Source: a virus
Length of the DNA stretch: 64,000 nt
IMG/VR virus record: IMGVR_UViG_3300027763_002499
Location: 26,549-90,548 of that record
Direction: 5' to 3' (one strand)
The translations under genes were made by a program, and so were the position numbers. Below, piece by piece: positions 25,996 through 48,856 of the stretch. The notes beneath the pieces were generated by a model. The model was not told where the DNA came from and ran no database searches. It saw nothing but the letters and a program-made list of their open reading frames with translations. How positions within the stretch are numbered: the first letter of the stretch is position 1; every line of letters starts with the position of its first letter.

Positions 25996-26802
25996 TTATT
26001 TACAAATGGCCCTCTTTGCGTTGGTCAAAGCACCAAAATCCACGGCCCACTCTGATCCAACAGCTAGTTCCTTGGCACCTGTTGGATATTCATATTTTAC
26101 CCCGGCTTCCTTTTGTATTTGTGCAATTGGAGAACGGAATTTAGTAAGGTCATTGCCTAGATTAACATATGGTTTGGTATGTGGGAATTTCCATCCAGCC
26201 ATTTCCTTAGTAGCATTGTTAATTACAATTTTATAATAACCGTGTGGGACAATAACCTTACCCGGACCTATAAATTCATCGCCTGATCCATAGAATGCAC
26301 CTACATAAATTGTATAAGGTTGATTATGTTGTACAGCCCAACCACGAATACTAGTTTCTAACAATTTCCAAATACCACGATTTAGACTGCCGTGTTGTGG
26401 ATACATGTTGGTCATTAGGAAACTTTCGTACTCTACTTGTTCACTCCAAGATAAGTCACCATCTGGAGCGGCATGGCCCTTGTCATAGCCTGTACCAGCA
26501 TAGTCATCTGGCTTTGCACCGTTGGGAACTGATTTGTCTGCTACAAAGGCATTTGTGCGTGGCCAGCAACCTAATGCATTTTTTGGAAGTAGCGTATAAC
26601 TTACATACGCTGGAATTTTAACAGGTGCATCATAAGCAACCAAATATGCTTCACGGCAAATTGGTTTTGCATCTCTGGTTGTTTCAGCAAAACCATATGG
26701 GGCATGAACTTTACATGCGGCAAGTGGCAATGGCGCACGTTGTTCCCATGCATGTGATATGTTAGCAAAAAATACAAGTGCTAAGACGAGTAATCGTTTC
26801 AT
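25996..26802 (-). CDS. Secreted DNA/RNA non-specific endonuclease (NUC1 family)
   Basis: A 268-aa protein with a cleavable signal (MKRLLVLALVFFANISHA) and a betabeta-alpha-Me nuclease core: DKGHAAPDGDL (catalytic His in the DRGH-type motif), then LMTNMYPQHGSLNRGIW with the metal-binding Asn. It should act in the periplasm, for example on incoming DNA or on nucleic acids for nucleotide supply. It is the last gene downstream of the carbamoyltransferase (26-base gap), so it may be co-expressed with the radical SAM cluster. RBS AAAGGA. Confidence 0.85.
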   Translation of the reverse strand: MKRLLVLALVFFANISHAWEQRAPLPLAACKVHAPYGFAETTRDAKPICREAYLVAYDAPVKIPAYVSYTLLPKNALGCWPRTNAFVADKSVPNGAKPDDYAGTGYDKGHAAPDGDLSWSEQVEYESFLMTNMYPQHGSLNRGIWKLLETSIRGWAVQHNQPYTIYVGAFYGSGDEFIGPGKVIVPHGYYKIVINNATKEMAGWKFPHTKPYVNLGNDLTKFRSPIAQIQKEAGVKYEYPTGAKELAVGSEWAVDFGALTNAKRAICK

Positions 26803-26828
26803 TGGAAAATCCTTTAAAACGATACTTA

Positions 26829-28286
26829 TCAATATACTGGTATATTATGTAGATTTTGAAATTTCAGTGCATCATCCCAGGTGTTTACCAAGGGCTCACC
26901 TTTGATGTTAAGGCTTGTATTCATTAATACAGGACAACCGCTTTTTCTGTTCCACTCTTCCAATAATGTTCTAAAAGTTATATTGTCATCTTTTGATACA
27001 GTTTGCACCCTACTTGTTCCATCTACATGACAAACTCCAGGCAGTTCACCGCTGGTACACTTTGCTACAAACTGCATATAAGGACTAGAGGACACAGGCA
27101 TGTCAAAGTATGCACCAGCATGTTCTTTTAGTACTGCTGGTGCAAATGGTCTAAACTGTTCTCGCTTTTTAATAGCGTTCATTCTAGACTTGGCTTTGGG
27201 TCCACGCGGGTCACATAGTAGACTACGATTGCCTAACGCTCTTGGTCCAAACTCTGCTCTGCCATTTGCTACTGCTACTACTTCTCCTGCCTGTAGACGT
27301 TTGACCACAGCATCAATGTCAAGTTCACGTTCAATATCTGTGCCAAGATAAGGATGCTTCCATGTCAAGTGCTCTTTGGTATGTACGGCAACTGCTCCAA
27401 TAGCACTACCAGCATCACCAGGGTTAGGCATGATCCAAATGTTGTCAAAGACTTGACTGCGAGCAAGCCTAGCATTGGCAACACAATTTAATGCCACTCC
27501 CCCCATGAACACAAGATTTTTGCTCTTGATATTCATGCTCATACCAATTACAGTTTCTATCAGGTAATCTTCAACTATGCTCTGAACACATGCGGCAATA
27601 TCAAACTTATTGGTGTTTAATGGTGCAGTCCACCAACGACATCCGCGATGTAAGTTATGTCTTAGTTTAAAATCTGGTGCTTCAATATATTCAAAGAATT
27701 CATTCTTAATATGGTTTTTAAGAACTAGGTCAACAGAACCATATGCTGCCATGCCCATAAGAATGTATTCTTCTTCGTTGGGCTTTAGGCCAACATAATC
27801 AGTAAATGCTGTGTAAAACAATCCAATGCTATTGGGATAACGCTGTCGCCATTTACACTTTAATTTATTTGCCTGACCTTCCCAGATGCTAACAGTATCC
27901 CATTCACCAATGGCATCAACTACAAGTACTGCGGCATCACTGTATCCGCTTGTGTAGTATCCAGCTGCCGCATGACTATGATGGTGTCCAACAACCTCCA
28001 TTGGCAAATTATCCAACCCAACAAGTTTGAGTTGATCTTGAGGATTTACAATCCAAGGTCTTTGTCCCGAGTAAAGTCTACGCAAATTCTTAGACCAAGG
28101 CTTTTCAAACCATACAATTTGAGTTGGTTCGCCGTACTCACGCATTTCACGCACCATGTTAACATCTAACATAGTATCGTTTTTCTTTCTGCTATAGCGT
28201 TCGCTGTGCCCTGCCCAGAGTATTTTATCTCCATCAATCAGTGCCATACTGGCATCATGATTCTGGGCAGTGATACCCAGAATCAT
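26829..28286 (-). CDS. O-carbamoyltransferase (NodU/CmcH/TobZ family)
   Basis: A 485-aa two-domain carbamoyltransferase. The N-terminal Kae1-like domain shows MILGITAQNHDAS, HHHSHAAAGYY (metal-binding His), VVDAIGEWDT and MGGVALNCVAN; the C-terminal YrdC-like domain has FGPRALGNRSLL, FRPFAPAVL, CHVDGTSRVQTV and VLMNTSLNIKGEP. The family uses carbamoyl phosphate and ATP to carbamoylate hydroxyls of sugars or antibiotics. Slightly shorter than the usual 530-570 aa. It abuts the fused radical SAM gene with no gap, suggesting a tailoring role on the cluster's product. Confidence 0.92.
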   Translation of the reverse strand: MILGITAQNHDASMALIDGDKILWAGHSERYSRKKNDTMLDVNMVREMREYGEPTQIVWFEKPWSKNLRRLYSGQRPWIVNPQDQLKLVGLDNLPMEVVGHHHSHAAAGYYTSGYSDAAVLVVDAIGEWDTVSIWEGQANKLKCKWRQRYPNSIGLFYTAFTDYVGLKPNEEEYILMGMAAYGSVDLVLKNHIKNEFFEYIEAPDFKLRHNLHRGCRWWTAPLNTNKFDIAACVQSIVEDYLIETVIGMSMNIKSKNLVFMGGVALNCVANARLARSQVFDNIWIMPNPGDAGSAIGAVAVHTKEHLTWKHPYLGTDIERELDIDAVVKRLQAGEVVAVANGRAEFGPRALGNRSLLCDPRGPKAKSRMNAIKKREQFRPFAPAVLKEHAGAYFDMPVSSSPYMQFVAKCTSGELPGVCHVDGTSRVQTVSKDDNITFRTLLEEWNRKSGCPVLMNTSLNIKGEPLVNTWDDALKFQNLHNIPVY

Positions 28287-30356
28287 TTAAATACCCTTCC
28301 ACTTACTAACTGGAATGTCGCCGCCACAGTGGCAACGCAAACTATTACAGATAACCGGGCGAGAAAAACTGTCCCAATTAATTTTATCAAATTCTTTTAC
28401 AGAGCCAACAACACCGCCTACATCACAATTTCCACGTTTGATATGTCCATTTTGATGAATGAATAAACTTTCAGCACCAATGTTGCACAAGTAATCATAG
28501 AAGTTTGTCTGTCCTTTGTTGATTAGACCCTGAGGACTTGTTATGTTTTCAGTGGTGTTATCTTCAAAGGTTGCTTGGACAGGAGTTGCATGGAAATCTC
28601 TATATATTGGATTGGTTATTCTAATCAAATCAGCAGATGATCGACTTGGTGTTTCTTTAAATGTTTTAAAAAATTCAAGTTGTTCTTCGCTGTAATTAAT
28701 TTTAGCCAACTTGGTCCTGCTTGCACCATACTGGTCGTCGATATAAACAATTTCAATTTTAGCAGTAGTTTTCTTTTTAAGTTTTTCAATGAACTCTATA
28801 GATTTATCCCAATGCAACGGATCCATCATAATACGAGCCGCAACTTGAGTTTCTAAACTGGCAATTTTAATTTTTTCCAACCATTCATCTGCTGTACCAT
28901 TGGGAAACTCTTGTGCTGGATGAAAGCTACATGCCGCATAAGTCAGATATTTAAAATTATCTTTAATAAATCTTGGAGTACGCACAAGATTTGTAGTCAT
29001 ACCACCGGTACCACCAAGAGTGTGAATACGCTCAATCATCTCCGGGAAGAAAGGACTTAGCGTAGGTTCTCCACCGCTCAATGAAAATGTCAAATGCCGG
29101 TTCTTGCCATATTGTTCAAATAACCTGTCAAGGAAAGGAGAAACAACATCCCAGTTAAACAAATGGTTTTTTCCATCGTGTAATACTGGTGGGCAATACC
29201 TACAAGCATAATTACAAATGTCATTTAAGATCCAGGTAATGATTGCTTTGTCTTCATTCTTAATTTCAATGATCTTTTTAGCCTGGACTGGGATTGGAAA
29301 CTTCCACTGCGGAATACGTGCTCTTGGAGTTTTAAATGCTGAATGCATTTGTATGTTGTCAACAATCTGTACATCTTGGATGCTTTTAAATCTACTTAGG
29401 TCTTTCTTCAAGCCATGTGATGCAGAATATAATGTATCTCGTTGTTCACCTAGCATGTGCCCAATGCCCATATACCCATGGCGATTGTCTGGATGAGACC
29501 ATTTGTGTCCTTGTATGCCATCAATGTTTAATGCTTTGAATTTTTTATATTCATTTGTAAGTGTATATGGATCATAATCGTCATATACAAGATACGCGGC
29601 CATTTCATTAGACCATGTTTCCTGACGATAAAAGGCATTTTCGTCAACAGCTCGTTGGTCATTATCAGCAATAATGTGACTCATGTTTTTACCAAGAGTA
29701 TTATAGCCTAGTACCAAGTCGCCAAATCTAAGCCTGTGTAAAAAGCTGGCTGCATCCTCTTCGGTAATTTCAAAATCAATCCTTGGATTGAAACTGATCA
29801 AAATATTGGCAGCAGAATAACTAGGTTCCTTTTTGCCTGATCCTCTTTTTTTAATAAACATTTCAGCAGTGTGAATAGCATCGTTCAACTGAATGAATGT
29901 ACTGTGAAAATCCTCATTGAAGGTAATACCTGGCCAACACTTGGCTTCTGGGCTGTCTGCTGAAATGCGTTTATAAGCATCATCCCACCATTTTTGTGAT
30001 AGCTTTTCGCTTAGACGTTCACCATAAATCTCATATTCCTCGTGGAGGTAATTTAGTGCATCTTGATCGTGTTCTCGAAACATTGTCAATGGGCGGTCAT
30101 AAAAAAGATTAATTTTTCTAACAATATTACTCAAACGCTCATCAAGATCCAATCCTTGATAGGCCGCACTCCTTGTAAACTTAATGCGCTTTTCTCGAAA
30201 ACTTTTCTCTCCGTAACGCATGTCTTCCATGAGCTTGACCCATTTCTTGGCAAGATTGGTATTGTACAGCTTATAGTATATGTCAAAAGGTTCCCACGTT
30301 GTTGTATCAACAAGCGTGAGCCGTACGTTTTTGTCGTTTAGATATTTTCCGCTCAT
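28287..30356 (-). CDS. FGD-domain / radical SAM fusion protein
   Basis: A 689-aa fusion. Residues 1-300 form an unrecognised domain shared with the genes at 38499 and 32967 (LNYLHEEYE 101-109, QLNDAIHTAE 156-165, FGDLVLGYNTLGKN 211-224). Residues 370-560 form a radical SAM core: CNYACRYC with C381, C385, C388, and SLSGGEPTLSP. The C-terminus has further cysteines (CNIGAES, GNCDVGG, CNSLRCHCGGD) like a SPASM/twitch auxiliary-cluster region. It therefore likely holds extra Fe-S clusters. The fusion says the N-terminal domain works directly with a radical SAM enzyme. Substrate unknown. Confidence 0.82.
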   Translation of the reverse strand: MSGKYLNDKNVRLTLVDTTTWEPFDIYYKLYNTNLAKKWVKLMEDMRYGEKSFREKRIKFTRSAAYQGLDLDERLSNIVRKINLFYDRPLTMFREHDQDALNYLHEEYEIYGERLSEKLSQKWWDDAYKRISADSPEAKCWPGITFNEDFHSTFIQLNDAIHTAEMFIKKRGSGKKEPSYSAANILISFNPRIDFEITEEDAASFLHRLRFGDLVLGYNTLGKNMSHIIADNDQRAVDENAFYRQETWSNEMAAYLVYDDYDPYTLTNEYKKFKALNIDGIQGHKWSHPDNRHGYMGIGHMLGEQRDTLYSASHGLKKDLSRFKSIQDVQIVDNIQMHSAFKTPRARIPQWKFPIPVQAKKIIEIKNEDKAIITWILNDICNYACRYCPPVLHDGKNHLFNWDVVSPFLDRLFEQYGKNRHLTFSLSGGEPTLSPFFPEMIERIHTLGGTGGMTTNLVRTPRFIKDNFKYLTYAACSFHPAQEFPNGTADEWLEKIKIASLETQVAARIMMDPLHWDKSIEFIEKLKKKTTAKIEIVYIDDQYGASRTKLAKINYSEEQLEFFKTFKETPSRSSADLIRITNPIYRDFHATPVQATFEDNTTENITSPQGLINKGQTNFYDYLCNIGAESLFIHQNGHIKRGNCDVGGVVGSVKEFDKINWDSFSRPVICNSLRCHCGGDIPVSKWKGI

Positions 30357-30376
30357 AAAGTCCTCAAATAATGTTT

Positions 30377-31609: not shown

Positions 31610-32900
31610 TAATGAAATCCACTATTCTCGAGTCAAGAACTGTATAGTCCTGTTTCCTTGCACTATCCAGGCTCTTGGTGTAAACTTGTAATCGTGCAAG
31701 TTGTTCTTGCCAATCTTCTGCTCTTGTTTGCTGTAGTAATCCTATTATACCATTAACGCTGTTCTTTGTCAAGTCATGAACATTCCATGGCATCTTTTTA
31801 TCTCTATAATCTGTTAACATTTTTAGAGCAGTGGCTCGCAGACTATCTGGTAGTATGTTCACATTCAAATGATGTGGATGTATGTTGATTAATAAATCAA
31901 CAAATATCTTCTTACTGTATTTCTTGTTAAGTTCGTCAACCCAGGTCAGTGTCTCGACTAAATTAAATACATTGTAAACTTGTACCGTTGGAGTAACGCC
32001 TAGCTTAATGTTAGGTAATGCGGCTAGTTTTTCAACATTGACTTTGAGCTGGCTCCATTTGCTAGGAGGACGAATGTATTCGTTGACAGCACCAATGCCA
32101 TCAAGACTTGCGTTAATGTTAATTTCATCAAATTGGCTAATCAAGTCTGTAAACTTTTGATTTACGTTTGTACAGTTGGTATTAAAGAATAACAGTATAT
32201 CCTTTCTGCCTTGATCAATACACTCCTGCATAAACTTAAAGTTATGCTCAATCAATGTAGGCTCTCCGCCTGTCATGTAAACTTTTTTAAGATCTGGAAT
32301 TAATTTTATAACCTGGTCCCAAAGCAAATCGCTTTCAAACCATTCCTGGTTCTTCATTACAGCTTCGGGGAACTTGCCAAATGTCTTGCCCCAAACCTTA
32401 CTATACTCGCTGTCTGCAATTACAATGTCCTTGTGTTCTTTAGCAATCTGACTAGAGTTCCAGGGATTGCACATGCGGCATTTTAAATTGCATAGATTGC
32501 CTAATCGCAGGTCTAGATATACAATATCCTTGTTTACTACGCCTCCGTTCATCTTGGCAAATCTTACTCGTTGTTGTAGTTCCTCTTCTCCGAGACGCCA
32601 AGCCCATTCATTGTTGGCATGCATGCGATTGCTTTCACGACCTGATTCCTCTTGTAGGTAGCATGTACTGCAACCCTCAACCCGATCACCTTGTATCATA
32701 GCAGTACGAATGTCTCGCATGTCTTTGCCATTCCATGCGTGTTCTATAAACTGGTCCTGGATTGTAAAAAATTTACCATCTTCTTTTTTGAGTTTGTTAG
32801 CAGAACCCTTTACCATACAGCAATAACGAACTGTGGTATCGGTATTCACCATCATACTAACAAACGGGATGGCACAAAATGTATTTGAAATTGGTTTCAT
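31596..32900 (-). CDS. Radical SAM protein with N-terminal twitch (class A)
   Basis: A 434-aa paralogue of the gene at 30377: C9 in FCAIPF, C27-C28, C77-x-x-C80, core triad C137, C141, C144 (CNLKCRMC) with TGGEPTLIEHNF, NTNCTN and SLDGIGAVNEYIRPP. The C-terminus ends RIVDFINGKI. Lies after a 66-base gap containing a perfect palindrome, the largest gap in the cluster, and lacks a good Shine-Dalgarno site. Confidence 0.85.
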   Translation of the reverse strand: MKPISNTFCAIPFVSMMVNTDTTVRYCCMVKGSANKLKKEDGKFFTIQDQFIEHAWNGKDMRDIRTAMIQGDRVEGCSTCYLQEESGRESNRMHANNEWAWRLGEEELQQRVRFAKMNGGVVNKDIVYLDLRLGNLCNLKCRMCNPWNSSQIAKEHKDIVIADSEYSKVWGKTFGKFPEAVMKNQEWFESDLLWDQVIKLIPDLKKVYMTGGEPTLIEHNFKFMQECIDQGRKDILLFFNTNCTNVNQKFTDLISQFDEININASLDGIGAVNEYIRPPSKWSQLKVNVEKLAALPNIKLGVTPTVQVYNVFNLVETLTWVDELNKKYSKKIFVDLLINIHPHHLNVNILPDSLRATALKMLTDYRDKKMPWNVHDLTKNSVNGIIGLLQQTRAEDWQEQLARLQVYTKSLDSARKQDYTVLDSRIVDFINGKI

Positions 32901-32941
32901 TAAACTAAGATTTAACTTTAATAGCTTTACTTAGTGGTTTT

Positions 32942-32965
32942 AGACTGGGCAGATCTGCCCAGTCT
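32942..32965 (-). terminator. Perfect palindrome inside the radical SAM operon
   Basis: Two 12-base arms (AGACTGGGCAGA / TCTGCCCAGTCT) with no spacer, giving a stable hairpin with a 4-base loop. No U-run follows on the minus strand, so it may attenuate, process or stabilise mRNA rather than terminate. It also encodes part of a 21-codon mini-frame in another reading frame. Confidence 0.55.
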
Positions 32966-32966
32966 T

Positions 32967-34463: not shown

Positions 34464-34466
34464 AGA

Positions 34467-34568
34467 TTAATAGATAAATGGGTCACGCTTTTTCAGCTCT
34501 TTGAGTCGTTTTCTGTAGCGAATTTCGCCTTTGATTTTTTCAATAATATTTTTAATAAAATTCCACAT
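34467..34568 (-). CDS. 33-aa basic helical peptide gene
   Basis: A 33-codon gene (MWNFIKNIIE..., ending RDPFIY) with a good RBS (AGGAAGAAACACA) before the ATG, 3 bases ahead of the FGD-domain gene and 11 after the SGNH gene. The peptide is an amphipathic basic helix (about 12 Lys/Arg) with an aromatic C-terminus. Being a short gene among radical SAM enzymes, it is a candidate substrate peptide, but a structural or membrane role is equally possible. Confidence 0.65.
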   Translation of the reverse strand: MWNFIKNIIEKIKGEIRYRKRLKELKKRDPFIY

Positions 34569-34579
34569 TGTGTTTCTTC

Positions 34580-35484: not shown

Positions 35485-36372
35485 CTATAATGAATACTTA
35501 GCAACAAACTCGTTGAAGATTTTATCAGCAGCCATATCATGTATGTATTCTACAAAGTGGCCGCCGGGTTTGACAATATGAGCATTTTCATCTTGTTCTT
35601 TGGCAATGTCTTCTAAGTTTATTATATAATTAATGTCTAGTTCATCAAACAGAGATACAATAGACTGTCCAATAAAAGATTGTTTCTCGCCAATTGCAAT
35701 AGGGTTGACCAAGTTTTCAGGACCAAATACTGACCTTACAAAATATAAATCAATGCCTTTACTCTGACAAAATGTTTTTAGTAGTAGATTACAAAGCAAC
35801 CACTTGTGTAAACGTGCATCTTCATGTTCGTGCATTATTGCAGTTTTACGTATATCATTAATTTGAGGTGTGATGCTATCTGTTATGTGCAACATAATAG
35901 AAGACCAATAGTTAACCGACTTACTGGTACTAAAATATTGAATCCTATTAACATAGGTAATGCCAACTAGAAAAATTACTTTTCTGCCCTGTGTTCTTCC
36001 GTGTTTTGTTTCATGCAGGTACTTGTCGATAATTTCCCTGTTTATCCATTCTTGTCCTGCGCCGCCTGCGGCATAATTGTGTAACACACATTGACCATTC
36101 AATTTTTCAGATAGTTTTGTATATAATTTAGCAGGATAAGCCCTTCTTAAATTCTCTGCTTCTAGATTATATTTCTGCTCTGCGGTTAGTTTGTGATTAT
36201 TTTTATGCTGGTGAATTGCTTGTATACGTAACGTATTACTTTTTTGACTTTCAGGATCTATCCATTCTTGATGTGTAAGATTACCAAGTCCCGAATCGGG
36301 GTAAAACATATCATCGGCCAACTCATCACCAGCAGTAAAACTATCGCCACAAGCAAAAACTACCAGTTCCAT
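35485..36372 (-). CDS. SGNH/GDSL-like hydrolase (copy 1)
   Basis: A 295-aa tandem paralogue of the next gene: ACGDSFTAGDEL (Ser 11), NYAAGGAGQEW, VIFLVGITYVNRIQYF and GGHFVEYIHDMAAD. The block HEHEDARLHKWLL and LLLKTFCQSKGI are nearly identical in both copies while the regions at 30-60 and 215-245 differ, suggesting diverged substrate preference. No signal peptide. Confidence 0.78.
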   Translation of the reverse strand: MELVVFACGDSFTAGDELADDMFYPDSGLGNLTHQEWIDPESQKSNTLRIQAIHQHKNNHKLTAEQKYNLEAENLRRAYPAKLYTKLSEKLNGQCVLHNYAAGGAGQEWINREIIDKYLHETKHGRTQGRKVIFLVGITYVNRIQYFSTSKSVNYWSSIMLHITDSITPQINDIRKTAIMHEHEDARLHKWLLCNLLLKTFCQSKGIDLYFVRSVFGPENLVNPIAIGEKQSFIGQSIVSLFDELDINYIINLEDIAKEQDENAHIVKPGGHFVEYIHDMAADKIFNEFVAKYSL

Positions 36373-36375: not shown

Positions 36376-37113
36376 TTACATTATTGCTTTTAAACTATCT
36401 AATACAATTTGATTGAATGGATCGCGGGCACCGCCATGACTGATCATGTGAATTCTAGGTGTGTCACTGTTGTTCCAGACTGAGTGCAGGTTTCCAATAT
36501 CTACCAAGCAGGCATTGCCTTCATTTTTAAAAGGAACATAACCCTTGCCTTCCATTTTAAAATTACAACCCGCTGGATTGTTCAATGCTACATTAATTGG
36601 CAACAAGAAGTGTTCATTTCGATCCTTATGTGGCTGAATGTAACCGTGTGGATCTAACCACATGTAACGTAGTCTGTGATATCTGTGATTTGGAAACACA
36701 TCGAGGAAGTATCTTGTTGTTTCGGGACAACGTTCGGTTATCTCGCCGCACCAATGATAATTGATATCATCAATGGTTTTACCTTTGTTATCTTCATATG
36801 CTTCCCAATGTCCAGTTCTGTCCCAGGCCTCACCATGCAAACAAATACTCTTCCATCCTTTATTTGCATATTCTGGGTTTTCATTTGGATGTGTTCTGTG
36901 CATCTGGAAAAGATCTTCCATGGCAAATGCTTCACGCAACATGTCTGCAAACGGTGCACCTGGAAGAATCAGTGGCAAGTAAGGCCACCCACTTTTCATA
37001 ATGATCCAATCAACCAATTCATGTTCATGCTCAAACTTTGGTAATTCTACTTTTTTAAAATCCATGGTCCATGGACTATCATTGAAAAATTCTACAATTG
37101 CTTTTGGTATCAT
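36376..37113 (-). CDS. Asp/Asn beta-hydroxylase-like 2OG-Fe(II) oxygenase
   Basis: A 245-aa protein whose C-terminal half fits the aspartyl/asparaginyl beta-hydroxylase cupin: LRYMWLDPHGYIQPHKDRNEH (His and HxD iron ligands), VALNNPAGCNF and the distal NLHSVWNNSDTPRIHMISH with His and the 2-oxoglutarate Arg. It would hydroxylate a peptide side chain or small molecule using O2 and 2OG. The start is set by an ATGA overlap with the upstream gene; the frame runs 19 codons further but inside that gene. Confidence 0.8.
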   Translation of the reverse strand: MIPKAIVEFFNDSPWTMDFKKVELPKFEHEHELVDWIIMKSGWPYLPLILPGAPFADMLREAFAMEDLFQMHRTHPNENPEYANKGWKSICLHGEAWDRTGHWEAYEDNKGKTIDDINYHWCGEITERCPETTRYFLDVFPNHRYHRLRYMWLDPHGYIQPHKDRNEHFLLPINVALNNPAGCNFKMEGKGYVPFKNEGNACLVDIGNLHSVWNNSDTPRIHMISHGGARDPFNQIVLDSLKAIM

Positions 37114-38495
37114 TTTATTACATTTCCTAGGTGTGTCCAACCAGATATGCCAGAGCTTGTTGTTCCACATACTTGTATGCTGGTATTATTTAATCGTAGT
37201 TCCTGTGAAAAAGAATCATACACTGACTTTAACCACGCTGGTTTAAAGTGGCGTAGGCTTGCCTCAGTGTAGAAACTATTACTGAACCAAATTAAATTAT
37301 TGCCTGGATGTTGACGCATATCAGCAATCAATTCACTGCGATCGTAATACAGGTTAGTCTTTAAGAATCTATGCTCAAGTGCTCTGTATCTGTTCCATAT
37401 GTCTAACCAGGCGGATTCTCCGCCAAATACTGCAATGGTTTTTTCCCACTCAGGAGTGTAGTCTTTTTGTGCAAACCAAATTGGTCTAAACCCTGGATCA
37501 ACATTGTTGATATAATGTTGTATAATGCCCAGATAATCACGCCCGTCCCAGTTCTTTAATAACCATTCTTTAAATGCCAGTGCTGAGTCACTATAATCAA
37601 AATATATCACTCTGGTAGTCGAATCCCATTTGCATTGGTCTAAGAATTGAATTGGCTTAAAACCTGCCGCAACACAATACAAATTGTCAAGTTTGGTTGT
37701 CTTATCATAAGCAATATTGTCTGGCGTCATTGGGTCTGTGTTAAACACATAAACACTGCCTTGGAATCCAGAAAAATCCATCATGCTAATATAATTCTTT
37801 TGATTGTATTCCACTGGCTCCACTGATGTGTCGCCATCTAAAATACGCTCAAGTTCAGTGCCTACTTCTGGATAGAAGTGCTGTTTAAACTTTCTAATTT
37901 CTTCTGGGAAATTGCCAATGCCAAATCCATGCTTTAGTACTTCACTTGCAAGATTCCAACCTTCTCTAAGTTGTCCGGTAAATTGTCTTGTTTCATTGGT
38001 AGGTAAAATATAAAAAGGCGTGTACCCATCGTGGAAGTCTTCACTGCTACGCTGTACCTTTGGTAGAGTTACATTGTTGACTGTGTCATGATTACCCCAA
38101 AAAGGACTGCCGCTTTGTCTCCAATGATTCAAGTTGATCAATACACATTGATTATGTAAGGAATAAAAGCCTTGCTCTTTATCGGTGGGATTATCTTCTA
38201 ATATGTGTGCTAATACACTGTAATTATTACCTTCAGCATGTTTAATCATGCTTTCAACCAGGCGAGGGTCATAGCTTCTATACCCATAAGCAACAATGTA
38301 GAGATAATCATCATCTGTTAAACGAACAGAATTGAGTATTGAGTCTATTGTATCGGCAACAAGTAAATCGCCAGTGTGTTGATTTGCCATTGTCAATTGT
38401 AAGGATACTGCAAAGTCAGTGATGGCCCTGACATGATCTTGATAGCCTTGTGACCTGTTGGCTATTTGATTAAAAAGTCCAAATTTAATTTTCAT
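37110..38495 (-). CDS. Unknown 461-aa protein of the radical SAM cluster
   Basis: A soluble 461-aa protein with no family I can name. The N-terminal half has an alpha/beta pattern with SVLAHILEDNP, SLHNQCVLINLNHW and SPFWGNHD, slightly reminiscent of glycosyltransferase-like folds; the second half has KLDNLYCVAAGFKPI and RVIYFDYSDSALAFKEWL, like a Rossmann unit. No cysteine motif. Tightly packed between the hydroxylase (4-base overlap) and an FGD-domain gene (3-base gap). Confidence 0.55.
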   Translation of the reverse strand: MKIKFGLFNQIANRSQGYQDHVRAITDFAVSLQLTMANQHTGDLLVADTIDSILNSVRLTDDDYLYIVAYGYRSYDPRLVESMIKHAEGNNYSVLAHILEDNPTDKEQGFYSLHNQCVLINLNHWRQSGSPFWGNHDTVNNVTLPKVQRSSEDFHDGYTPFYILPTNETRQFTGQLREGWNLASEVLKHGFGIGNFPEEIRKFKQHFYPEVGTELERILDGDTSVEPVEYNQKNYISMMDFSGFQGSVYVFNTDPMTPDNIAYDKTTKLDNLYCVAAGFKPIQFLDQCKWDSTTRVIYFDYSDSALAFKEWLLKNWDGRDYLGIIQHYINNVDPGFRPIWFAQKDYTPEWEKTIAVFGGESAWLDIWNRYRALEHRFLKTNLYYDRSELIADMRQHPGNNLIWFSNSFYTEASLRHFKPAWLKSVYDSFSQELRLNNTSIQVCGTTSSGISGWTHLGNVIK

Positions 38496-38498
38496 GAT

Positions 38499-39443
38499 TT
38501 ACTCTATTAGTCTTGCGGCAGAAATTTTGCCCAATTCAAAGATTTCGTTTACTTCGTCATACGTTACTTCATCTCTATTTACTAGCTGTCCCAGTAATGG
38601 TCGTGCCACTGCTTGATTTTCTGGCAATGACATATCAACATACTCATTGAGTTCGTTATCATCTACCCACTTGATTAAGTCTTCTAACACTAACTTTGAG
38701 TGGCCTTCATACTGTGGTTGTCTAATGGTTTCTGAAAATGATAATATCACTTCGTTACTAATTGTACGCTGTGGTCTAATCATATTTTTCTTAACTAAAT
38801 CAATATCGTTGTCAACATAGCAATGATAAATGTTTTTGCCAACTGTATGATAACCCAATAATAGATCACCAAATACTACATCATGCAAGAAATATTCATA
38901 TAGTGAGGGGTCTGTAATTTCTTCTACATGAATTCCTGCAACGACACCTTCATTATGACTGGCATGTAAGAAAAAACCTGCAAGTAAATCGTTACCATAA
39001 CTGTTTAGCATTGTTTCCAAAACATGAATATCAACGTTTAATCTGATCAAAGGATCATATTCTACTAATATTCCGTTAAGTTGTTCTTCAAATCTATGAA
39101 ATTCATAGTGTAAGTAATTTAAAATTTGACGGTTATTTCTAGTTTCATCAAATTCCTCCGGCATGTCAATAAAATCAACCTGAATGTACTTTCCGGAATT
39201 GGCTTCATCTACTAACCGTTTCATCTCTTTCCATAAAGCACTAATTTTTTCCTTGGATGCTGAACTGGCAATCCACTGATTTTCAAAAATGTGGCAGTCT
39301 GGATGAGATGTTACCCAACGTACACGCTCTAACCATTTCTGACTAACTGGAGTATCTACAATTTGATAACGCAGTGTTTTTGTAACTTCACCGTCGGTAA
39401 AGTCAATTTCATAAAATTTATCTAATAAGTTATAAGTCGTCAT
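38499..39443 (-). CDS. Stand-alone FGD-domain protein
   Basis: A 314-aa protein consisting mainly of the shared domain: TLRYQIVDTPVSQKW (24-37), ILNYLHYEFHRFEEQL (107-121), RLNVDIHVLE (134-143) and FGDLLLGYHTVGKN (191-204) followed by a DND. The same blocks occur in the same order in the rSAM fusion at 28287 and in the gene at 32967. It overlaps the upstream rSAM gene by 14 bases, so the two are probably made together and may form the split equivalent of the fusion. Confidence 0.7.
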   Translation of the reverse strand: MTTYNLLDKFYEIDFTDGEVTKTLRYQIVDTPVSQKWLERVRWVTSHPDCHIFENQWIASSASKEKISALWKEMKRLVDEANSGKYIQVDFIDMPEEFDETRNNRQILNYLHYEFHRFEEQLNGILVEYDPLIRLNVDIHVLETMLNSYGNDLLAGFFLHASHNEGVVAGIHVEEITDPSLYEYFLHDVVFGDLLLGYHTVGKNIYHCYVDNDIDLVKKNMIRPQRTISNEVILSFSETIRQPQYEGHSKLVLEDLIKWVDDNELNEYVDMSLPENQAVARPLLGQLVNRDEVTYDEVNEIFELGKISAARLIE

Positions 39444-40686
39444 TTAAATGTCCATAGATATCAATTTTACTTATATCCTTGTTTCGTCGTTGTGCAAACT
39501 GCTTGATGAAAGAGAGAAAGTCCTTGGCCAGCGCCGTTTGGTTAGGTGCTTCACGCACATCAAGCAAGGTTAAAAGTCTACTGTAGCGATTTGTCTCATG
39601 TTCATTAAATTGCGGAAGCAGTCTTGCAAATACCTTTTCATACTTGTTGTAGTATTGATCAATTGACATTTGATCTAGTATTTTGAAACTTTGAAACTCA
39701 GGGTAGGTTAAAAAGTTAAAGTCAATTGAGATAGGTGTACGCATGCCTTGTCGGAGACGTATTATATCTTCTAAGAATTTATCAAAGTTTTGTAAACACA
39801 TTGCGCCAATTGTGGTCATTACAAATATATGATCAAGTCCGGCATCATCTAAGAATTTGATGTTATCAAGCCACTCTTGATAGTTCATACCATCTCGCAA
39901 AATTTCTGCAACATGATCTGCGCTTTCATTGCTGGTATAGATAGATACTTGCTTGATACCTTTAATTTTTTCTTTGAATCTTTCTAGTACCAGTGGCTTC
40001 TGACAGAGGTTAGAATTAATTGCAATCTTAACATTGGGATTCTTGGTACGCACTCGGTCAAGCAAATCAAAAGTTTGCTCATGTAACAATGGTTCGCCTC
40101 CAGTGATGCGAATAATATCAATATTATCTACAACTGTATCAAACCAGGCCCAGAATAGATCAAAGTCAACTGAATTATCCTTGTACTGCTCTATTGGTCT
40201 CTGATAGTGTTTGCGAGCATCTGTTGTGATATTCTCATAAACACCATTGTTCCTAATATCATTTGCCCACTGCGAGCTAAAGTCAGCATTACAGTAAGAG
40301 CAACCTAGGTTACAGGTCTTTTGGAAGGCCAATTCTAATACCTTGGGTTTAAAATTAAAACCAGGGTCTAGGTAATTTTCTGGAGTCAGGTGATCAGGGT
40401 AACTGACAGATTTATATTCCCTGTCACTGGTTAATCCTTGTGCTTCCAATTTCCAGCAGTAGTTGCAAGGCTCTGGTTTTTCACCTGCAAGCATGGACTT
40501 TTGCTGGTTGCGTTTGTCTGTTGTGTTATAAAAAGTTTCAACAGTTGAACCAGTGCTGTGGAAGGGGTTATGATGGCAACTGGCAATTTTACCACTGTAC
40601 AACCAAATTGTTGCTTCGTGAAATTTAGCCATACAAAATGTATTGCTAGTGTTTGCCCACAATTTTTCTAATTCTATTTTTTGCAT
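39430..40686 (-). CDS. Radical SAM protein, CHH-type N-terminus (class B)
   Basis: A 418-aa radical SAM enzyme: C18 in FCMAKF, CHH at 37-39 (ASCHHNPFH), C74-x-x-C77 (CNYCWKLE), TSDR, core triad C125, C129, C132 (CNLGCSYC), and ITGGEPLLHE. The C-terminal FAQRRNKDISK corresponds to the Q-x-D-x-RRNKNF motif of its class B relatives. Class B copies replace the CC pair of class A with C-H-H, implying a differently ligated auxiliary site. Confidence 0.85.
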   Translation of the reverse strand: MQKIELEKLWANTSNTFCMAKFHEATIWLYSGKIASCHHNPFHSTGSTVETFYNTTDKRNQQKSMLAGEKPEPCNYCWKLEAQGLTSDREYKSVSYPDHLTPENYLDPGFNFKPKVLELAFQKTCNLGCSYCNADFSSQWANDIRNNGVYENITTDARKHYQRPIEQYKDNSVDFDLFWAWFDTVVDNIDIIRITGGEPLLHEQTFDLLDRVRTKNPNVKIAINSNLCQKPLVLERFKEKIKGIKQVSIYTSNESADHVAEILRDGMNYQEWLDNIKFLDDAGLDHIFVMTTIGAMCLQNFDKFLEDIIRLRQGMRTPISIDFNFLTYPEFQSFKILDQMSIDQYYNKYEKVFARLLPQFNEHETNRYSRLLTLLDVREAPNQTALAKDFLSFIKQFAQRRNKDISKIDIYGHLNDDL

Positions 40687-43242: not shown

Positions 43243-44572
43243 ACCAGTTTATAAACCTTTGATCTAGTGATTCACGGAAATTCTTATTTCTTCTTTTGTC
43301 ATATTGTGACACATATGATTTTAAATCTTTTAATGCGTTTTCTTCACTCAAATGCTTTTCCCATTTAACGTTTGTTTCTGACATATTTACAATTAGTCGT
43401 TCAACGTGAGCAATTTCAGTATCATGGCACAGGCTTCTATTTTCATCTAGCCAGGCAGTAAATTCTTTTACCATCTCTAACCTAAGCTCAATAGGGATAA
43501 GCTGAACACGCATAAATGCAGGTGAATGAACAAAGTTGCAATTAAGTTCAACCCTGAGTTGTCCATATTTAATCTTAAGGTCTTTGATCATATTTAGATA
43601 ATCAATCATGGACCAAACACCAAGGTTGTTAATGCTTGTAGTAAAGTTTAATCTATTGACAACATAGCTTGGACTTTCAAGTACTGTAATCACATTCTTC
43701 ATCCATACATCGCCATCAAACCCGTCACGAATGTATTCAGTTTGTTTTAACGAACTTTCAATGCTGGTGTGTAACACTGTTCTAAAATTACTACCCACTG
43801 TATCAAGCAAACGCTGTAGCACATCTTCTTTGCAAACAAGATTGGTATTAATTGACAAGTCTCTATTAAACTCACCTTCTTTTAATCTATCTAGGAAGCG
43901 CCAAAAGTTTGGACTCATGGTAGGTTCGCCACCAGTGACACGAAGCCACTTTAGGTCTCTTTCTAAAGTAGGTAACCATTTAAAAAAAGCTTCAACATAG
44001 GGGTTTTCTCCCTGATCAATCATGTCTTCATCGTTTGATTTGGTATATCTAGAATCAGTAAGCAATCCTTCATATGGACCGTAATTTTTAATGTCATTTG
44101 CCCATTTGGTGCTAAATGCTGGACCGCAATAGGCACATGCCAAATTACAAATCCTGTCAAACGCAATTTCTAGCATGTAAGGATTAGTTGTTAGTGGTCT
44201 CTCTGCCTTCATCCATTTGTATAAACGATAGGTTGGAACAGCCTGTGTTTTAATATAGCGATCACTTAGTCCTCCGTCATCTTCAATGCTCCAGCAATAA
44301 TTACAACCGCTGGGCTTTTCACCATCAAGCATGGCCTGTCTCTCTCGTATTTTTTGAGGAGTATTTTGTAGACTTGACGGGTCATTTGGATCTAGTTCAA
44401 TCTTGTGAAATGGGTTGTGATGGCAACTGGCTGTTGCACCCTGGTATAGCCAAATTGTACCTTCAAACCATTTGGCGCCACAGAAGCTAGGACTAACCTT
44501 GTCCATTTGCTCTTCTTTAAAAATTTTAAATCGAGCAGTTTCTCCAGTCTGATGTGATTTCATGTCTGACAT
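43229..44572 (-). CDS. Radical SAM protein, CHH-type N-terminus (class B)
   Basis: A 447-aa enzyme: C31 in FCGAKW, CHH at 50-52 (CHHNPFH), C90-x-x-C93 (CNYCWSIE), LSDR, core triad C142, C146, C149 (CNLACAYC), FSTKWANDI, VTGGEPTMSP, YIRDGF and terminal YDKRRNKNF. Start taken at the ATG after the preceding stop; a TTG 4 codons earlier is in frame. Confidence 0.85.
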   Translation of the reverse strand: MSDMKSHQTGETARFKIFKEEQMDKVSPSFCGAKWFEGTIWLYQGATASCHHNPFHKIELDPNDPSSLQNTPQKIRERQAMLDGEKPSGCNYCWSIEDDGGLSDRYIKTQAVPTYRLYKWMKAERPLTTNPYMLEIAFDRICNLACAYCGPAFSTKWANDIKNYGPYEGLLTDSRYTKSNDEDMIDQGENPYVEAFFKWLPTLERDLKWLRVTGGEPTMSPNFWRFLDRLKEGEFNRDLSINTNLVCKEDVLQRLLDTVGSNFRTVLHTSIESSLKQTEYIRDGFDGDVWMKNVITVLESPSYVVNRLNFTTSINNLGVWSMIDYLNMIKDLKIKYGQLRVELNCNFVHSPAFMRVQLIPIELRLEMVKEFTAWLDENRSLCHDTEIAHVERLIVNMSETNVKWEKHLSEENALKDLKSYVSQYDKRRNKNFRESLDQRFINWYDSI

Positions 44573-44573
44573 A

Positions 44574-45944
44574 TTAAATTTCAATCCTGTTGTACCAATC
44601 TGCTAAATCTGGAAATGCTTCTGTGAAATTCTTTCCGCGACGTTGATCATATTGCTGATAGAAACTCTTAAAATCCTTTTCGAGTTTTTCTCTTTCAAAT
44701 GCATCCTTGTGCGGTGTTTTTACAACGTCAAGATAGTCAATCAATCGTTGAGTTTGATTAACTTCCATCTGATGCAATAATTCACTGTCTTTGTTATCAT
44801 CTAGCCACTGTTGTAATTTATCTTTTCTAGTTTGCCTCATATCATCTGGCATAACAGTAGGACTTTGGAAACTTGGGAAACGCAAGATGTTCAGGGAAAA
44901 TACAGCATAATTTCTACCATGCTTGGCCTTGAAAGCCATTACCCAATCTAAGAATTCAGTCAGACTTTCCAAGCAAAGTAAATTGATTGTACACATAACA
45001 TGCAATGCTTTAAAATTACCACTGGTGGCCAGTTTGTGCATATTATCTTCCCACTGTTTCCAATCAAGCCCGTCACGAATGTACTCGGCTTGTAGACCCA
45101 CTGCTTCGCCACTGGTATAAATTTGTAGGTCATCAATGTACTGTGCTCTATCAATTAACTTGTCAATGAGTTCATCTTTTCCGCCCAGATTACTGTTAAC
45201 TGCCAATCTCATATCAGGATTACGAGTATTCTTTGGGTCAGCAAACCAATCTAATAAACGCCATGTATGTGGGCTCATCAATGGTTCACCACCAGTGACA
45301 CGAAGTTCATATAGTGTTCTGTGCAAGTCACTTTCCCACCACTTGAAGAATGCTTCAATATAAGGATTACTTGGATCATGGTCATATACACCAGCAGAGT
45401 CATGAATATGATTATAGTGACCACGCCCATCTGTGTGCAGGTTGGTATAGTTGCCAAACTTCTTTAAATCGTTTACCCATGTTGTACTAAACGCAGGATT
45501 GCAATAAGAACAGGCAAACTGACAGGTGCGGTCAAACGCAATTTCTAGTGTGCGGAGATCTACATCGTTATTATAATCACCTTCCCATGCTTCTTTTAGC
45601 AAGTTGTCATCATATATCACACTTTTGTAAACGCGATCGCTGATGTTGTCTCTGCCAATGTCTTCAACTTTCCAGCAATATTCACAACCTGGTGGACGTT
45701 CACCATCTTGCATTTGCCTACGTTCATTTTTCTTATGGGCTGTATTGTGAATAGCCTTAGGGTTAAATTTAATTTCTTGTAAATCAGCTTGGTGTGGCAA
45801 AGGATGGTGACAGCTGGTGGTTTGTCCGCTGCCTAACCAAATGGTTGCATTGTACCATTTAGCTAGACATAAACTTTTACTGTGCCCGTCAAGCAAGTTT
45901 TTAATTTCGTGGTCAGTTGATCTGCCCGGAACACGTAATGTCAT
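44574..45944 (-). CDS. Radical SAM protein, CHH-type N-terminus (class B)
   Basis: A 456-aa enzyme: C26 in LCLAKW, CHH at 45-47 (TSCHHPLPH), C87-x-x-C90 (CEYCWKVE), ISDR, core triad C141, C145, C148 (CQFACSYC), FSTTWVNDL, VTGGEPLMSPH, YIRDGLDW and terminal YDQRRGKNFTEAFPDL. ATGA overlap with the upstream rSAM gene. Closest in layout to the genes at 43229 and 45941. Confidence 0.86.
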   Translation of the reverse strand: MTLRVPGRSTDHEIKNLLDGHSKSLCLAKWYNATIWLGSGQTTSCHHPLPHQADLQEIKFNPKAIHNTAHKKNERRQMQDGERPPGCEYCWKVEDIGRDNISDRVYKSVIYDDNLLKEAWEGDYNNDVDLRTLEIAFDRTCQFACSYCNPAFSTTWVNDLKKFGNYTNLHTDGRGHYNHIHDSAGVYDHDPSNPYIEAFFKWWESDLHRTLYELRVTGGEPLMSPHTWRLLDWFADPKNTRNPDMRLAVNSNLGGKDELIDKLIDRAQYIDDLQIYTSGEAVGLQAEYIRDGLDWKQWEDNMHKLATSGNFKALHVMCTINLLCLESLTEFLDWVMAFKAKHGRNYAVFSLNILRFPSFQSPTVMPDDMRQTRKDKLQQWLDDNKDSELLHQMEVNQTQRLIDYLDVVKTPHKDAFEREKLEKDFKSFYQQYDQRRGKNFTEAFPDLADWYNRIEI

Positions 45945-47536
45945 TTTGTTTTTCCTGTGATATTTTTAAAGCTTTGTTCGCTTAGTATATATAACTCTTC
46001 CAATTCGGGGAAGGTTTTCCTAAAGTTGGTATTGCGTCGCTGATCATGTTGAGTTACAAATGCAAAGAAATCAGCCCTGGCCATTTCTAATTTATCCGCT
46101 GTTAGTGGTTGTATTGCCCAGTCGTACAAACGTTGAACTTTATCTATTTCAAAATCTTTAAATCCTTTATATGGATTTTCTGATGTTTCAATGTTTTCTT
46201 TCATGAACTCAATTGATTCAAGTAACACATCAAAGTAGTGTGTTGGTAGTAATTTTAAACTTAACCAAACAGGATCGTTTAGCATTGGCACATCAAACCA
46301 TACCAATTGACGAGTAGTATTAAATTCTTGACGTAAACGTAAAATATTTTTTACATAATCCATCCAACCTGGAATACTAAGTGCATTAAAAGTAACAATT
46401 AAATTCAAGCTGTGTTTTCGGCCTACACGCAAATACTCTGTTATGTTTCTATGAAGCATTTCAAAGTCCAAGCCATATCTGCCGTACTCAGCCTGTGGCC
46501 CCCACGAATCTAGGCTACAGTAAAGCATGAAATGGTCAATTGCATTTTTTGTTTCCAATTCGTCAAGTGAGGTTAAAAACTTATTCCACTGATTACCAGG
46601 TGGACAGCAGTTTGATGTAACACTTAAATGTAGGTCGTCGCCTTTTGGATTGGCTGCCACATAGTCAAAAATCTTAAAGGTATTTTTATCCATAAAAGGC
46701 TCGCCGCCAGTCATGCGAAATGTTTGTAGTGTTGGGTAGATAGTAGGGAACCATTCCCAGAATGCCAATAGGTATGGATTATCTGGTCCGTTATCTGGAA
46801 TCATGTTTTCATTTTTCATCCAGGTTGTATCATTGTGTCTACGACCATCTGCCAATATTAACGGACCATGCTTGTCAATTTCTTTGTGCCATTCTGTGCT
46901 CAAATGAGGACTACAATATGAACACTTGAGATTACAGGCCTGGTTAAAGTTTACTTCCACATACTTTGGTGTTGGGTCACCATTATAACCATCCTTGACC
47001 ACTTCATTGAGTACACCTGGGCGCCAAACATCTTTGCTACGATAAGCTCGGTCACTTAACATTTCACCACTGTCTTCAATTTCCCAACAGAAATTGCACT
47101 CCTTGGGTCTGACACCATTGAGCATTTTCTTACGCTGTTCTTTTTTAAATTTAGTGTTATGAATTGCACCGGCATCAAGTTTAATTTCCTCTAAAGGAAT
47201 CTTGTGTGCAGGCGGATGATAACAACTATGTGTCTTGCCAGTGGGAATGTGAATACTTACATTGTACCACTTGGCCAAGCACATGCTAGGGCTAATCTCA
47301 TTGAGAATTTTAAATACTTTTTTAGTATCTTCTAGGTATACACTTTTTGCAACACCATTTGTTGTAATGGTGCCATCACCTTTAACTTGATGTAACTCGC
47401 CTCGGAATTCTTCCTTCTCTTCCTCAGACATGTATGCATATAGCTTTGGCTCAACAAGACCTGCAATTCTCTTTTTTGCTAATTCTTCATTGCTATTGTC
47501 AAACTTGTTGTTCTTAATTTTATTGAAAATGTTCAT
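45941..47536 (-). CDS. Radical SAM protein, class B with N-terminal extension
   Basis: A 531-aa enzyme, first gene after the cluster promoter. It has a 75-residue charged extension, then C86 in MCLAKW, C105-Y-H (HSCYHPPAH, one His replaced by Tyr), C147-x-x-C150 (CNFCWEIE), LSDR, core triad C201, C205, C208 (CNLKCSYC), LSTEWHKEI, MTGGEPFMDKN and terminal HDQRRNTNFRKTFPEL. Otherwise follows class B throughout. Confidence 0.86.
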   Translation of the reverse strand: MNIFNKIKNNKFDNSNEELAKKRIAGLVEPKLYAYMSEEEKEEFRGELHQVKGDGTITTNGVAKSVYLEDTKKVFKILNEISPSMCLAKWYNVSIHIPTGKTHSCYHPPAHKIPLEEIKLDAGAIHNTKFKKEQRKKMLNGVRPKECNFCWEIEDSGEMLSDRAYRSKDVWRPGVLNEVVKDGYNGDPTPKYVEVNFNQACNLKCSYCSPHLSTEWHKEIDKHGPLILADGRRHNDTTWMKNENMIPDNGPDNPYLLAFWEWFPTIYPTLQTFRMTGGEPFMDKNTFKIFDYVAANPKGDDLHLSVTSNCCPPGNQWNKFLTSLDELETKNAIDHFMLYCSLDSWGPQAEYGRYGLDFEMLHRNITEYLRVGRKHSLNLIVTFNALSIPGWMDYVKNILRLRQEFNTTRQLVWFDVPMLNDPVWLSLKLLPTHYFDVLLESIEFMKENIETSENPYKGFKDFEIDKVQRLYDWAIQPLTADKLEMARADFFAFVTQHDQRRNTNFRKTFPELEELYILSEQSFKNITGKTK

Positions 47537-47556
47537 TTGTGTGCTTAGATAAAATG

Positions 47557-47585
47557 ATAATGATACTTATCATGCAAAATGTCAA
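47557..47585 (-). promoter_or_regulatory. Likely promoter of the radical SAM operon
   Basis: TTGACA (47585-47580), 17-bp spacer, CATTAT (47562-47557). The -10 is imperfect (4/6), weaker than the other promoters, which may keep this long operon at low expression. An overlapping TATCAT lies at a shorter spacing. Confidence 0.6.
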
Positions 47586-47593
47586 GGGTTTAT

Positions 47594-48856
47594 TCAGATG
47601 AGCTTTTTGTTGTATTTGAGTATGGTTTCCATATCACTTGCCAACTTTGGCAATTCCTTCCTCCATTGTGTTTTTCGAATCTTATCCTTATCATTTAACT
47701 TGTACACTTGCTCATTAACCTTGTCAATTACTACATCTTTACTATAATTAGAAGGATTTTTAAGTACATATAAAAATTCTTTAAATGCCCTTCTTCTTTC
47801 CTCGATGGCGTATTTGTCAAATAAAGGATTAGTGAAATTTTTGCTTAAATCTTCTACATTCTGTATAGTTTCTTCTCGCATTGCAGGTGTTAGTACATCA
47901 ATAGAAAGTCCAACGGGATAAACCATTGGACCAAAATTCATGCGACAGCCATTGTTGTTGGTTATGCCATCTAGCCAATTTGCAATTTTGCCTATCATGC
48001 GATAGTTTGCTAAACCAATTGTTATGGTAAATTCTAAACGTATATGAGGGCCTTTCTTTGCCATCAAGGTTCTTATATTTGATGCAAACTCCTTGGCATC
48101 AAGACCATAACGAATGTACTCTCCCCATCTGTCAAAACCGTCGATACTAACTGATAATATCACTTTACCGTTTACCTTATTCCACATGTCTATTAGATCA
48201 TAATTCTTATAGGTTAAGTGACTAAAATTGGTATTGTAAAATATTTCAATTGGTTGCTGGCTGTCAATGAACAATTGTAATATTTCATAATGATGTTCTG
48301 CTATAGTAGGTTCGCCGCCAGCAAAATAAATTCTCTCAATATCTCTATAAAATTCTTTAATTTCACTTAATATTTTATCACTATCTACACTAATAATTGG
48401 TGTAGGAAGTTTTGGAACCTTAAGTCTTTTATCTTCTACAGCGTGTGAAGAACTATATGTATCACCGCAACCAATACAGGCAAAATTGCACTTGTTGGTA
48501 AATCTATAGTCCAGGTACAATTGTTTAAATTCTGCATGTCCGGTAAGATCTGTTTCTATCAATGATATAAATTCTTTCCATTTTTCATTTACATCCTGTC
48601 GTAACGATCTCCTACCAGCCTCTTCAAATCGAGCACATGAACTACATTCTGTAGGCAGTGCGTCAGAAGTAAGCATGTGTTTTCTAATTTTTTTATACGT
48701 GTGACCTTGGAAAATTTCCTTTAATGTGTTGTTTTTCAAATTGCCAACAGGAGTTTTTGAAGTAAGACAGCATAAATTTACATTGCTGTCTGGATCAATT
48801 TCCGAGTGCATCCATGGTAGGACACAAAATGCTTTGGGTAGATTGTTGATATCCAT
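47594..48856 (-). CDS. Radical SAM protein with N-terminal twitch (class A)
   Basis: A 420-aa enzyme: C11 in FCVLPW, C29-C30 (NLCCLTSK), C71-x-x-C74, core triad C123, C127, C130 (CNFACIGC), FAGGEPTIAEHHYE, NTNFSHL and SIDGFDRWGEYIRYG. It is upstream of the cluster promoter, separated from the rest by about 57 bases, so it may be a separate unit reading through. No clear Shine-Dalgarno site next to the ATG; AGGAGG lies inside the upstream hairpin loop. Confidence 0.84.
   Translation of the reverse strand: MDINNLPKAFCVLPWMHSEIDPDSNVNLCCLTSKTPVGNLKNNTLKEIFQGHTYKKIRKHMLTSDALPTECSSCARFEEAGRRSLRQDVNEKWKEFISLIETDLTGHAEFKQLYLDYRFTNKCNFACIGCGDTYSSSHAVEDKRLKVPKLPTPIISVDSDKILSEIKEFYRDIERIYFAGGEPTIAEHHYEILQLFIDSQQPIEIFYNTNFSHLTYKNYDLIDMWNKVNGKVILSVSIDGFDRWGEYIRYGLDAKEFASNIRTLMAKKGPHIRLEFTITIGLANYRMIGKIANWLDGITNNNGCRMNFGPMVYPVGLSIDVLTPAMREETIQNVEDLSKNFTNPLFDKYAIEERRRAFKEFLYVLKNPSNYSKDVVIDKVNEQVYKLNDKDKIRKTQWRKELPKLASDMETILKYNKKLI

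Follow-up and report, generated by a model that had tools for sequence, protein, structure and literature searches.

The stretch of DNA analysed here (hereafter the window) comprises 64,000 nucleotides and comes from a 90.5-kb IMG/VR contig (IMGVR_UViG_3300027763_002499), of which it covers bases 26549-90548; it carries an island of radical SAM genes arranged around three proteins that recur together in other phages: an FGD-domain protein, an Asp/Asn-hydroxylase-type 2-oxoglutarate (2OG) oxygenase (AspH) and a 461-aa protein (u461). Outside the window the contig carries, besides an endonuclease gene, genes for tail-fibre-like proteins, a clamp loader and a Clp-type ATPase, and since the window also encodes an endolysin, a DNA ligase and another ATPase, its source is a tailed phage. 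The island spans positions 26829-48856 of the window on the minus strand, with intergenic gaps of at most 116 bases and frequent overlaps, and its GC content is 0.376, as against 0.405 outside the island. A transmembrane check found no island protein with a clear transmembrane segment, and all were scored as soluble. A cluster for ribosomally synthesized and post-translationally modified peptides with its own precursor gene was ruled out because gaps of at most 116 bases separate the genes, a precursor encoded elsewhere being possible. The genes of the island are listed below (L and G numbers are our labels for the loci and contigs compared; scores after NF033640 refer to that family profile).

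26829..28286, minus strand: NodU/TobZ-type O-carbamoyltransferase (485 aa); Pfam N- and C-terminal domains, E 7.5e-56 and 2e-49
28287..30356, minus strand: FGD and radical SAM fusion with C-terminal SPASM-like cysteines; equivalent fusion in L036
30377..31609, minus strand: twitch radical SAM, second of a recurrent pair; NF033640 370 bits
31596..32900, minus strand: twitch radical SAM, first of the recurrent pair; NF033640 352 bits
32967..34463, minus strand: FGD protein with an extra N-terminal domain, by alignment; 44.8% identity to a 764-aa protein of L012
34580..35470, minus strand: SGNH/GDSL hydrolase-like; 60% identity to the neighbour at 35485, with the same blocks and profile basis
35485..36372, minus strand: SGNH/GDSL hydrolase-like; GDSF block and GGH..E block, profile match to the GDSL protein 4rsh, E 1.5e-4
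36376..37170, minus strand: AspH, trio core; PF05118, Pfam E 9e-12
37110..38495, minus strand: u461, trio core; AlphaFold2 (AF2) model, pLDDT 81.5, GT-A-like N-terminal and class I methyltransferase-like C-terminal part
38499..39443, minus strand: FGD protein, trio core; AF2 model, pLDDT 91
39430..40686, minus strand: twitch radical SAM; NF033640 259 bits; orthologue in L064
40686..42035, minus strand: twitch radical SAM; NF033640 341 bits; orthologues in L064 (two copies) and L010
42013..43242, minus strand: twitch radical SAM; NF033640 273 bits; 93% identity to the copy in the sister contig L009
43229..44584, minus strand: twitch radical SAM; NF033640 258 bits; orthologue in L064
44574..45944, minus strand: twitch radical SAM; NF033640 317 bits; orthologues in L064, L010 and L058
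45941..47536, minus strand: twitch radical SAM; NF033640 317 bits; orthologues in L064 and L010
47594..48856, minus strand: twitch radical SAM; NF033640 288 bits; orthologue L012 3841 in the tree

Enzymes encoded by the island

The initial annotation had recognized ten radical SAM proteins, and all ten open reading frames (ORFs) are present, each having a single CxxxCxxC and a single GGEP motif and each matched by Pfam Radical_SAM (seven above the curated cut-off, three below). Nine of them are full-length members of NF033640, the N-terminal-twitch radical SAM family, at 258-370 bits (cut-off 170 bits), and the N-terminal (auxiliary-cluster) set of cysteines is invariant in these nine; to our knowledge, no function has been assigned to the family. 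The tenth, encoded at 28287, is not a member (16.4 bits, over the radical SAM core alone), and joins an FGD domain (residues 5-334) to a radical SAM domain of another type. In an 85-sequence tree the paralogues of the window fall into separate, mostly well-supported clades together with orthologues from other contigs, and reciprocal best hits to L010, L064 and L034 are consistent with that tree. Since they form separate clades with counterparts elsewhere, the paralogues are old, distinct lineages, each of which probably carries out a different step; recent tandem duplication of the genes was ruled out by the same tree. The pair 31596-30377 is conserved in L024, L034, L038 and L050. An anti-phage defence system (viperin and others) was also considered and rejected, as PADLOC gave partial matches to the viperin core only.

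The other families named in the initial annotation were likewise recovered, with one revision, which concerns u461. AspH matches PF05118 at 45.5 bits (cut-off 22.6), and its residues H181xD183, H229 and R239, 100% conserved in 43 homologues, are the probable metal triad (H181, D183, H229) and 2OG-binding residue (R239). By alignment, three proteins carry an FGD domain, those encoded at 38499 and 32967 and the 28287 fusion. The FGD fold has no match in the PDB, its AF2 model having been built on a mixed FGD/radical SAM alignment in which 14 of the 48 rows carry CxxxCxxC, and belong to the same type of radical SAM as the C-terminal part of 28287. Residues N109, H112, N136, H140, E143, G202-K203 and D213 are conserved in the FGD protein and look like an active or metal site. 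The 461-aa protein had been called unknown; it is present as described, and its predicted fold now suggests a glycosyltransferase (GT)-A-like part followed by a methyltransferase-like one. The former has a Foldseek E of about 2e-4 with a low TM-score and weakly resembles collagen hydroxylysine galactosyltransferase, LH3 and mimivirus R699; no recognizable conserved DxD is found in the homologue alignment, where RSxENFHDDYTP is conserved instead. The C-terminal domain resembles NNMT/INMT (Foldseek E 1e-4, TM-score about 0.4 by target), with a glycine-rich motif that looks degenerate. Positions conserved in u461 are G71, R149-S150, H155-D156, Y158-T159-P160, G278, D300 and N406.

Both Pfam carbamoyltransferase domains are present in the protein encoded at 26829, which is closest in the PDB to novobiocin carbamoyltransferase (9s2t, E 6e-61) and more weakly related to TobZ and GdmN. 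It lies far below the NodU equivalog NF041651 (138.7 bits, cut-off 1000), and by these matches it groups with the antibiotic O-carbamoyltransferases. The two SGNH/GDSL-like proteins are identified by their GDS and distal His blocks and by the profile match, the Pfam match being weak.

Conservation of the module in phages and bacteria

Scans with FGD and u461 returned about 130 viral loci, which were mapped with local profiles, with counts taken from a cleaned FGD profile. The 107 loci with u461 reduce to 36 independent clusters at 70% identity, and the following cluster counts, which cover about 10 kb, are lower bounds: AspH is found in 33, FGD in 28, a twitch radical SAM in 28, a 28287-type radical SAM in 15 and a carbamoyltransferase in six. 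AspH lies next to u461 in 23 of the 36 and is fused to it in five. In the usual arrangement, two radical SAM genes (31596 type, then 30377 type) are followed by FGD, a radical SAM gene of the 28287 type, AspH and u461. Thus the genes form conserved clusters in 36 independent cases rather than being scattered singly among relatives. Larger arrays also occur, with 15 NF033640 matches (some of them weak) in a 235-kb phage (L110) and 13 in a 354-kb phage.

Fusions join the same proteins: AspH~u461 in 24 ORFs, FGD~AspH in three, FGD~radical SAM in six, u461~FGD in a Bdellovibrionia locus (L139), u461~AspH in L141, and u461 with a B12-binding radical SAM in L034, confirmed by Pfam. In a 392-kb Bdellovibrionota contig, a single 1072-aa ORF unites FGD, AspH and u461 (domain E-values 6e-20, 4e-33 and 1e-29), and beside it lie carbamoyltransferase, WbuX-like amidotransferase, GT2-like and radical SAM genes, the GT2 and WbuX labels resting on similarity to L140, the locus in which a WbuX match was tested. 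Because the three are linked over 36 clusters and are joined by pairwise and triple fusions, FGD, AspH and u461 appear to work in one pathway.

Among contigs with the same flanking genes, the trio is kept and the number of radical SAM genes varies: ten in the window, at least ten in the sister contig, seven with a carbamoyltransferase in L064, and two with three FGD proteins in L066. The island is therefore a variable cassette around a fixed core. Between the window and its sister, the ratio of nonsynonymous to synonymous substitution rates (dN/dS) is 0.025-0.19 for 12 of 16 genes, the ratios being rough because most measurable dS values exceed 1, and dS is saturated in the other four. Together with the intact active-site motifs, these values indicate that the island genes are under purifying selection.

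No FGD or u461 was found in INPHARED phage records by tblastn. Uncultured phages in BFVD show FGD-like folds, and Agrobacterium phage Atu_ph07 has a weaker one, for which a profile search gave no confirmation. In L108, L119, L136 and similar contigs, FGD occurs with an AspH~u461 fusion, in L108 amid T4-like replication genes; no twitch radical SAM was found on G007 and G014, two L108-type contigs searched whole. The idea that the module is confined to phages was not borne out, as u461 is present in 9 of 291 Bdellovibrionota genomes, with the reservation that the source records are metagenome-assembled genomes that may contain binning errors. Scanning the genome collection with FGD gave no match, a limit of the search pattern, as the u461 scan revealed FGD in such genomes. 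In one Bdellovibrionia contig (L142, L153, L154), a 30-kb stretch has about 15 twitch radical SAM genes, and its flanks carry housekeeping genes and not phage structural genes; amidinotransferase-like and aminotransferase-like genes were recognized there by eye, with no Pfam or NCBIfam match. A Flavobacteriales match (L144) is evidently a phage contig.

Promoters and neighbouring genes

Allowing at most one mismatch, TTGACA-N17-TATAAT occurs at 17 sites in the window, all on the minus strand, vs 0.94 expected, so the phage seems to rely on host sigma-70-type promoters, one of them within the island. These sites and a gene adjoining the island are as follows.

31744..31772, minus strand: consensus sigma-70 promoter TTGACA-N17-TATAAT, exact match, within the 31596 gene and 135 bases ahead of the 30377 start
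13956-13984, 25965-25993, 31744-31772 and 57673-57701, minus strand: examples of the sigma-70-type promoter sites
25996-26832: secreted NucA-type DNA/RNA endonuclease (PF01223), adjoining the island and also the L064 island

The endonuclease looks like flanking cargo rather than a member of the island. Beyond it, 24791-25993 encodes an FG-GAP-repeat lipoprotein, downstream of which lies an 11-pair terminator-like hairpin (24345-24371); because an exact promoter overlaps the listed TTG start, a later ATG (MKLRLILASLFATLLVACGGG) is the probable real start. On the other side of the island, 50399-51112 encodes a hydrophobic multi-helix membrane protein with a by-eye likeness to the Bax inhibitor-1/YccA family. 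Two large related proteins encoded at 58935-63998 match phrog_2295, one with a glycine-rich domain and the other with beta-propeller-type matches, and are possible virion adhesins.

Possible products and relation to known systems

A phage-encoded multi-step pathway, as first proposed from the gene content, is supported by the conserved neighbourhood, the intact motifs and the dN/dS values, and the island genes very probably form one pathway. As to its product, the reading that we prefer, with a probability of roughly 45%, is a cytoplasmic multi-enzyme pathway centred on the trio that would install a heavily tailored, sugar-containing group. We infer as follows how the steps are ordered, what each enzyme does, what the acceptor is and how the phage benefits. 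The trio would act as one machine: after hydroxylation of the acceptor by AspH, u461 would add a sugar and/or a methyl group to it, and FGD, whose His, Glu, Asp and Lys are conserved, would bind or process the common acceptor before handing it to the radical SAM enzymes. The twitch radical SAM enzymes, a swappable set of 2 to 11 or more, would then perform C-H chemistry, such as epimerization, dehydrogenation or deoxygenation, one step each, while the NodU/TobZ-type enzyme would O-carbamoylate and the SGNH enzymes would put acyl groups on or take them off. The acceptor would most likely be a virion protein or glycan, and next a host surface glycan, and a varying radical SAM set may yield different antigenic or receptor-shielding variants. 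With no membrane proteins, the island is compatible with virion components being modified in the cytoplasm, and also with a product fed into the host's export route.

That the product contains a sugar is moderately backed by the module's neighbours, which, together with the carbamoyltransferase and SGNH genes, point towards a tailored glycan or glycoprotein. GT8/glycogenin-like and GT7 genes adjoin it in relatives, where sulfotransferase-like and epimerase-like genes are also found; in two Bdellovibrionota genomes WbuX-like N-acetyl sugar amidotransferase, GT2-like and carbamoyltransferase genes adjoin it; and the L010 island comes after a tail-fibre-like gene. In a second context (L037, L044-L046, L054, L056), FGD lies beside proteins that fuse TIGR04324 (2OG oxygenase) to TIGR04323, both of 'sporadic carbohydrate clusters' (SpoChoClust); in L056, the locus tested, the matches are below the curated cut-offs. 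A further neighbour family, gtC3, had no PDB profile match, the GT label of this family being guessed from its motifs. Several observations weigh against a sugar-containing product. Profiled GT families occur within 10 kb in only 12 of the 36 clusters, and the island of the window has no classical glycosyltransferase besides u461, with its lack of an evident DxD. The trio also stands alone, in T4-like contigs of the L108 type and in Bdellovibrionota, so sugar genes nearby are dispensable. In L176 (7000-10087) and L179 (8964-11099), FGD and/or AspH~u461 lie in the vicinity of rpoA, between the genes for methylmalonyl-CoA mutase/MeaB and those for acyl-CoA carboxylase, and neither radical SAM nor GT genes are close by, a poor fit to the glycan idea. 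Finally, amidinotransferase-like or ATP-grasp-like genes, seen by eye in some bacterial arrays, would also fit a small molecule.

The occurrence of the trio alone in a housekeeping-like context, together with the methyltransferase-like C-domain of u461, could instead be explained by a sugar-free modification of a phage or host protein or peptide, in which AspH would hydroxylate, the radical SAM enzymes would epimerize, cross-link or oxidize side chains, FGD would recognize the target and u461 would methylate it. Peptides are often the substrates of SPASM/twitch and PF05118 enzymes. Such a route is rather unlikely, however, since the short gaps leave little space for a precursor gene, and the carbamoyltransferase, GT8, WbuX-like and SpoChoClust neighbours suit sugars better. 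A soluble, for example aminoglycoside-like, small molecule produced during infection against competitors or host functions would accord with the antibiotic-type carbamoyltransferase, the amidinotransferase-like and aminotransferase-like genes of the Bdellovibrionia array, the glycine amidinotransferase annotated in the CP220 radical SAM module and the lack of membrane proteins; it is nevertheless improbable, as no export, resistance or scaffold-forming gene was recognized in the island and those extra genes are absent from most phage modules.

Phages are able to modify nucleobases through elaborate chemistry, and the L108-type trios amid replication genes could point to hypermodification of phage DNA or RNA. 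The island, however, has no nucleobase-activating or deazaguanine enzyme, its radical SAM enzymes are of the twitch family and not QueE-like, and bacteria hold chromosomal copies, which makes this explanation highly improbable. The variable clusters of large phages have also been discussed as possible stuffer for headful packaging (PMC3037559). Functionless stuffer DNA, or a chance build-up of duplicated radical SAM genes, is already contradicted by dN/dS in the 12 genes with measurable dS, by the intact motifs, and by gene order and fusions conserved across phages and bacteria, and is hardly credible here.

If the module is real, it would represent a widespread biosynthetic module that has a fold lacking a PDB match and defined partner enzymes, in which natural fusions reveal the proteins that must work together. 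It would also provide a pathway for the twitch radical SAM family, and would help to explain the hoarding of such enzymes by large aquatic phages and Bdellovibrionota. Because the locus has 2, 7 or 10 radical SAM genes in related phages, product differences would be directly testable. A bolder version, on the doubtful side, is that FGD-AspH-u461 is a new complex with a new fold that makes a novel modification, programmed by up to a dozen swappable radical SAM enzymes and shared by phages and predatory bacteria as combinatorial surface chemistry.

The initial annotation had held the number of radical SAM genes to be unlike known phage clusters, which was too strong: the interchangeable modules of Campylobacter phages CP220/CPt10 contain 11-12 such genes (PMC2853527), and 12 occur in a TARA T4-like phage (PMC5332604). 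The CP220/CPt10 arrays resemble the island in being interchangeable and in having nucleotide-diphospho-sugar transferase-like neighbours, but their radical SAM proteins lie far under the NF033640 cut-off (best 35 bits) and belong to another family, and a search of these phages for AspH and u461 homologues found none. Pelagimyophages have radical SAM and GT cassettes in a tail-fibre hypervariable region, and these, like cyanomyophage lipopolysaccharide clusters, share with the module phage-borne glycosyltransferases, carbamoyltransferases, AspH-type genes and radical SAM cassettes, whereas the available parts of these papers describe neither the FGD-AspH-u461 core nor its fusions (PMC7029224, PMC3037559). 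Nine NF033640 members per operon around this core, as in the window, are likewise not in the definition of the family, and a search of the open-access literature yielded no account of the trio or of a connection between it and twitch radical SAM enzymes. Among single enzymes, the protein encoded at 26829 shares both Pfam domains with NodU, TobZ and GdmN and is shorter. LH3 and COLGALT1 likewise combine a 2OG hydroxylase with a GT-A-like domain, adjacent or fused in the module, with weak fold similarity; however, the hydroxylase of the module is of the PF05118 type and its GT-A similarity is weak, with no evident DxD, and the likeness is an analogy only. Thus, the trio-plus-twitch radical SAM module appears to be undescribed, whereas the radical SAM count alone is not new, and it is the conserved core that matters more than this count.

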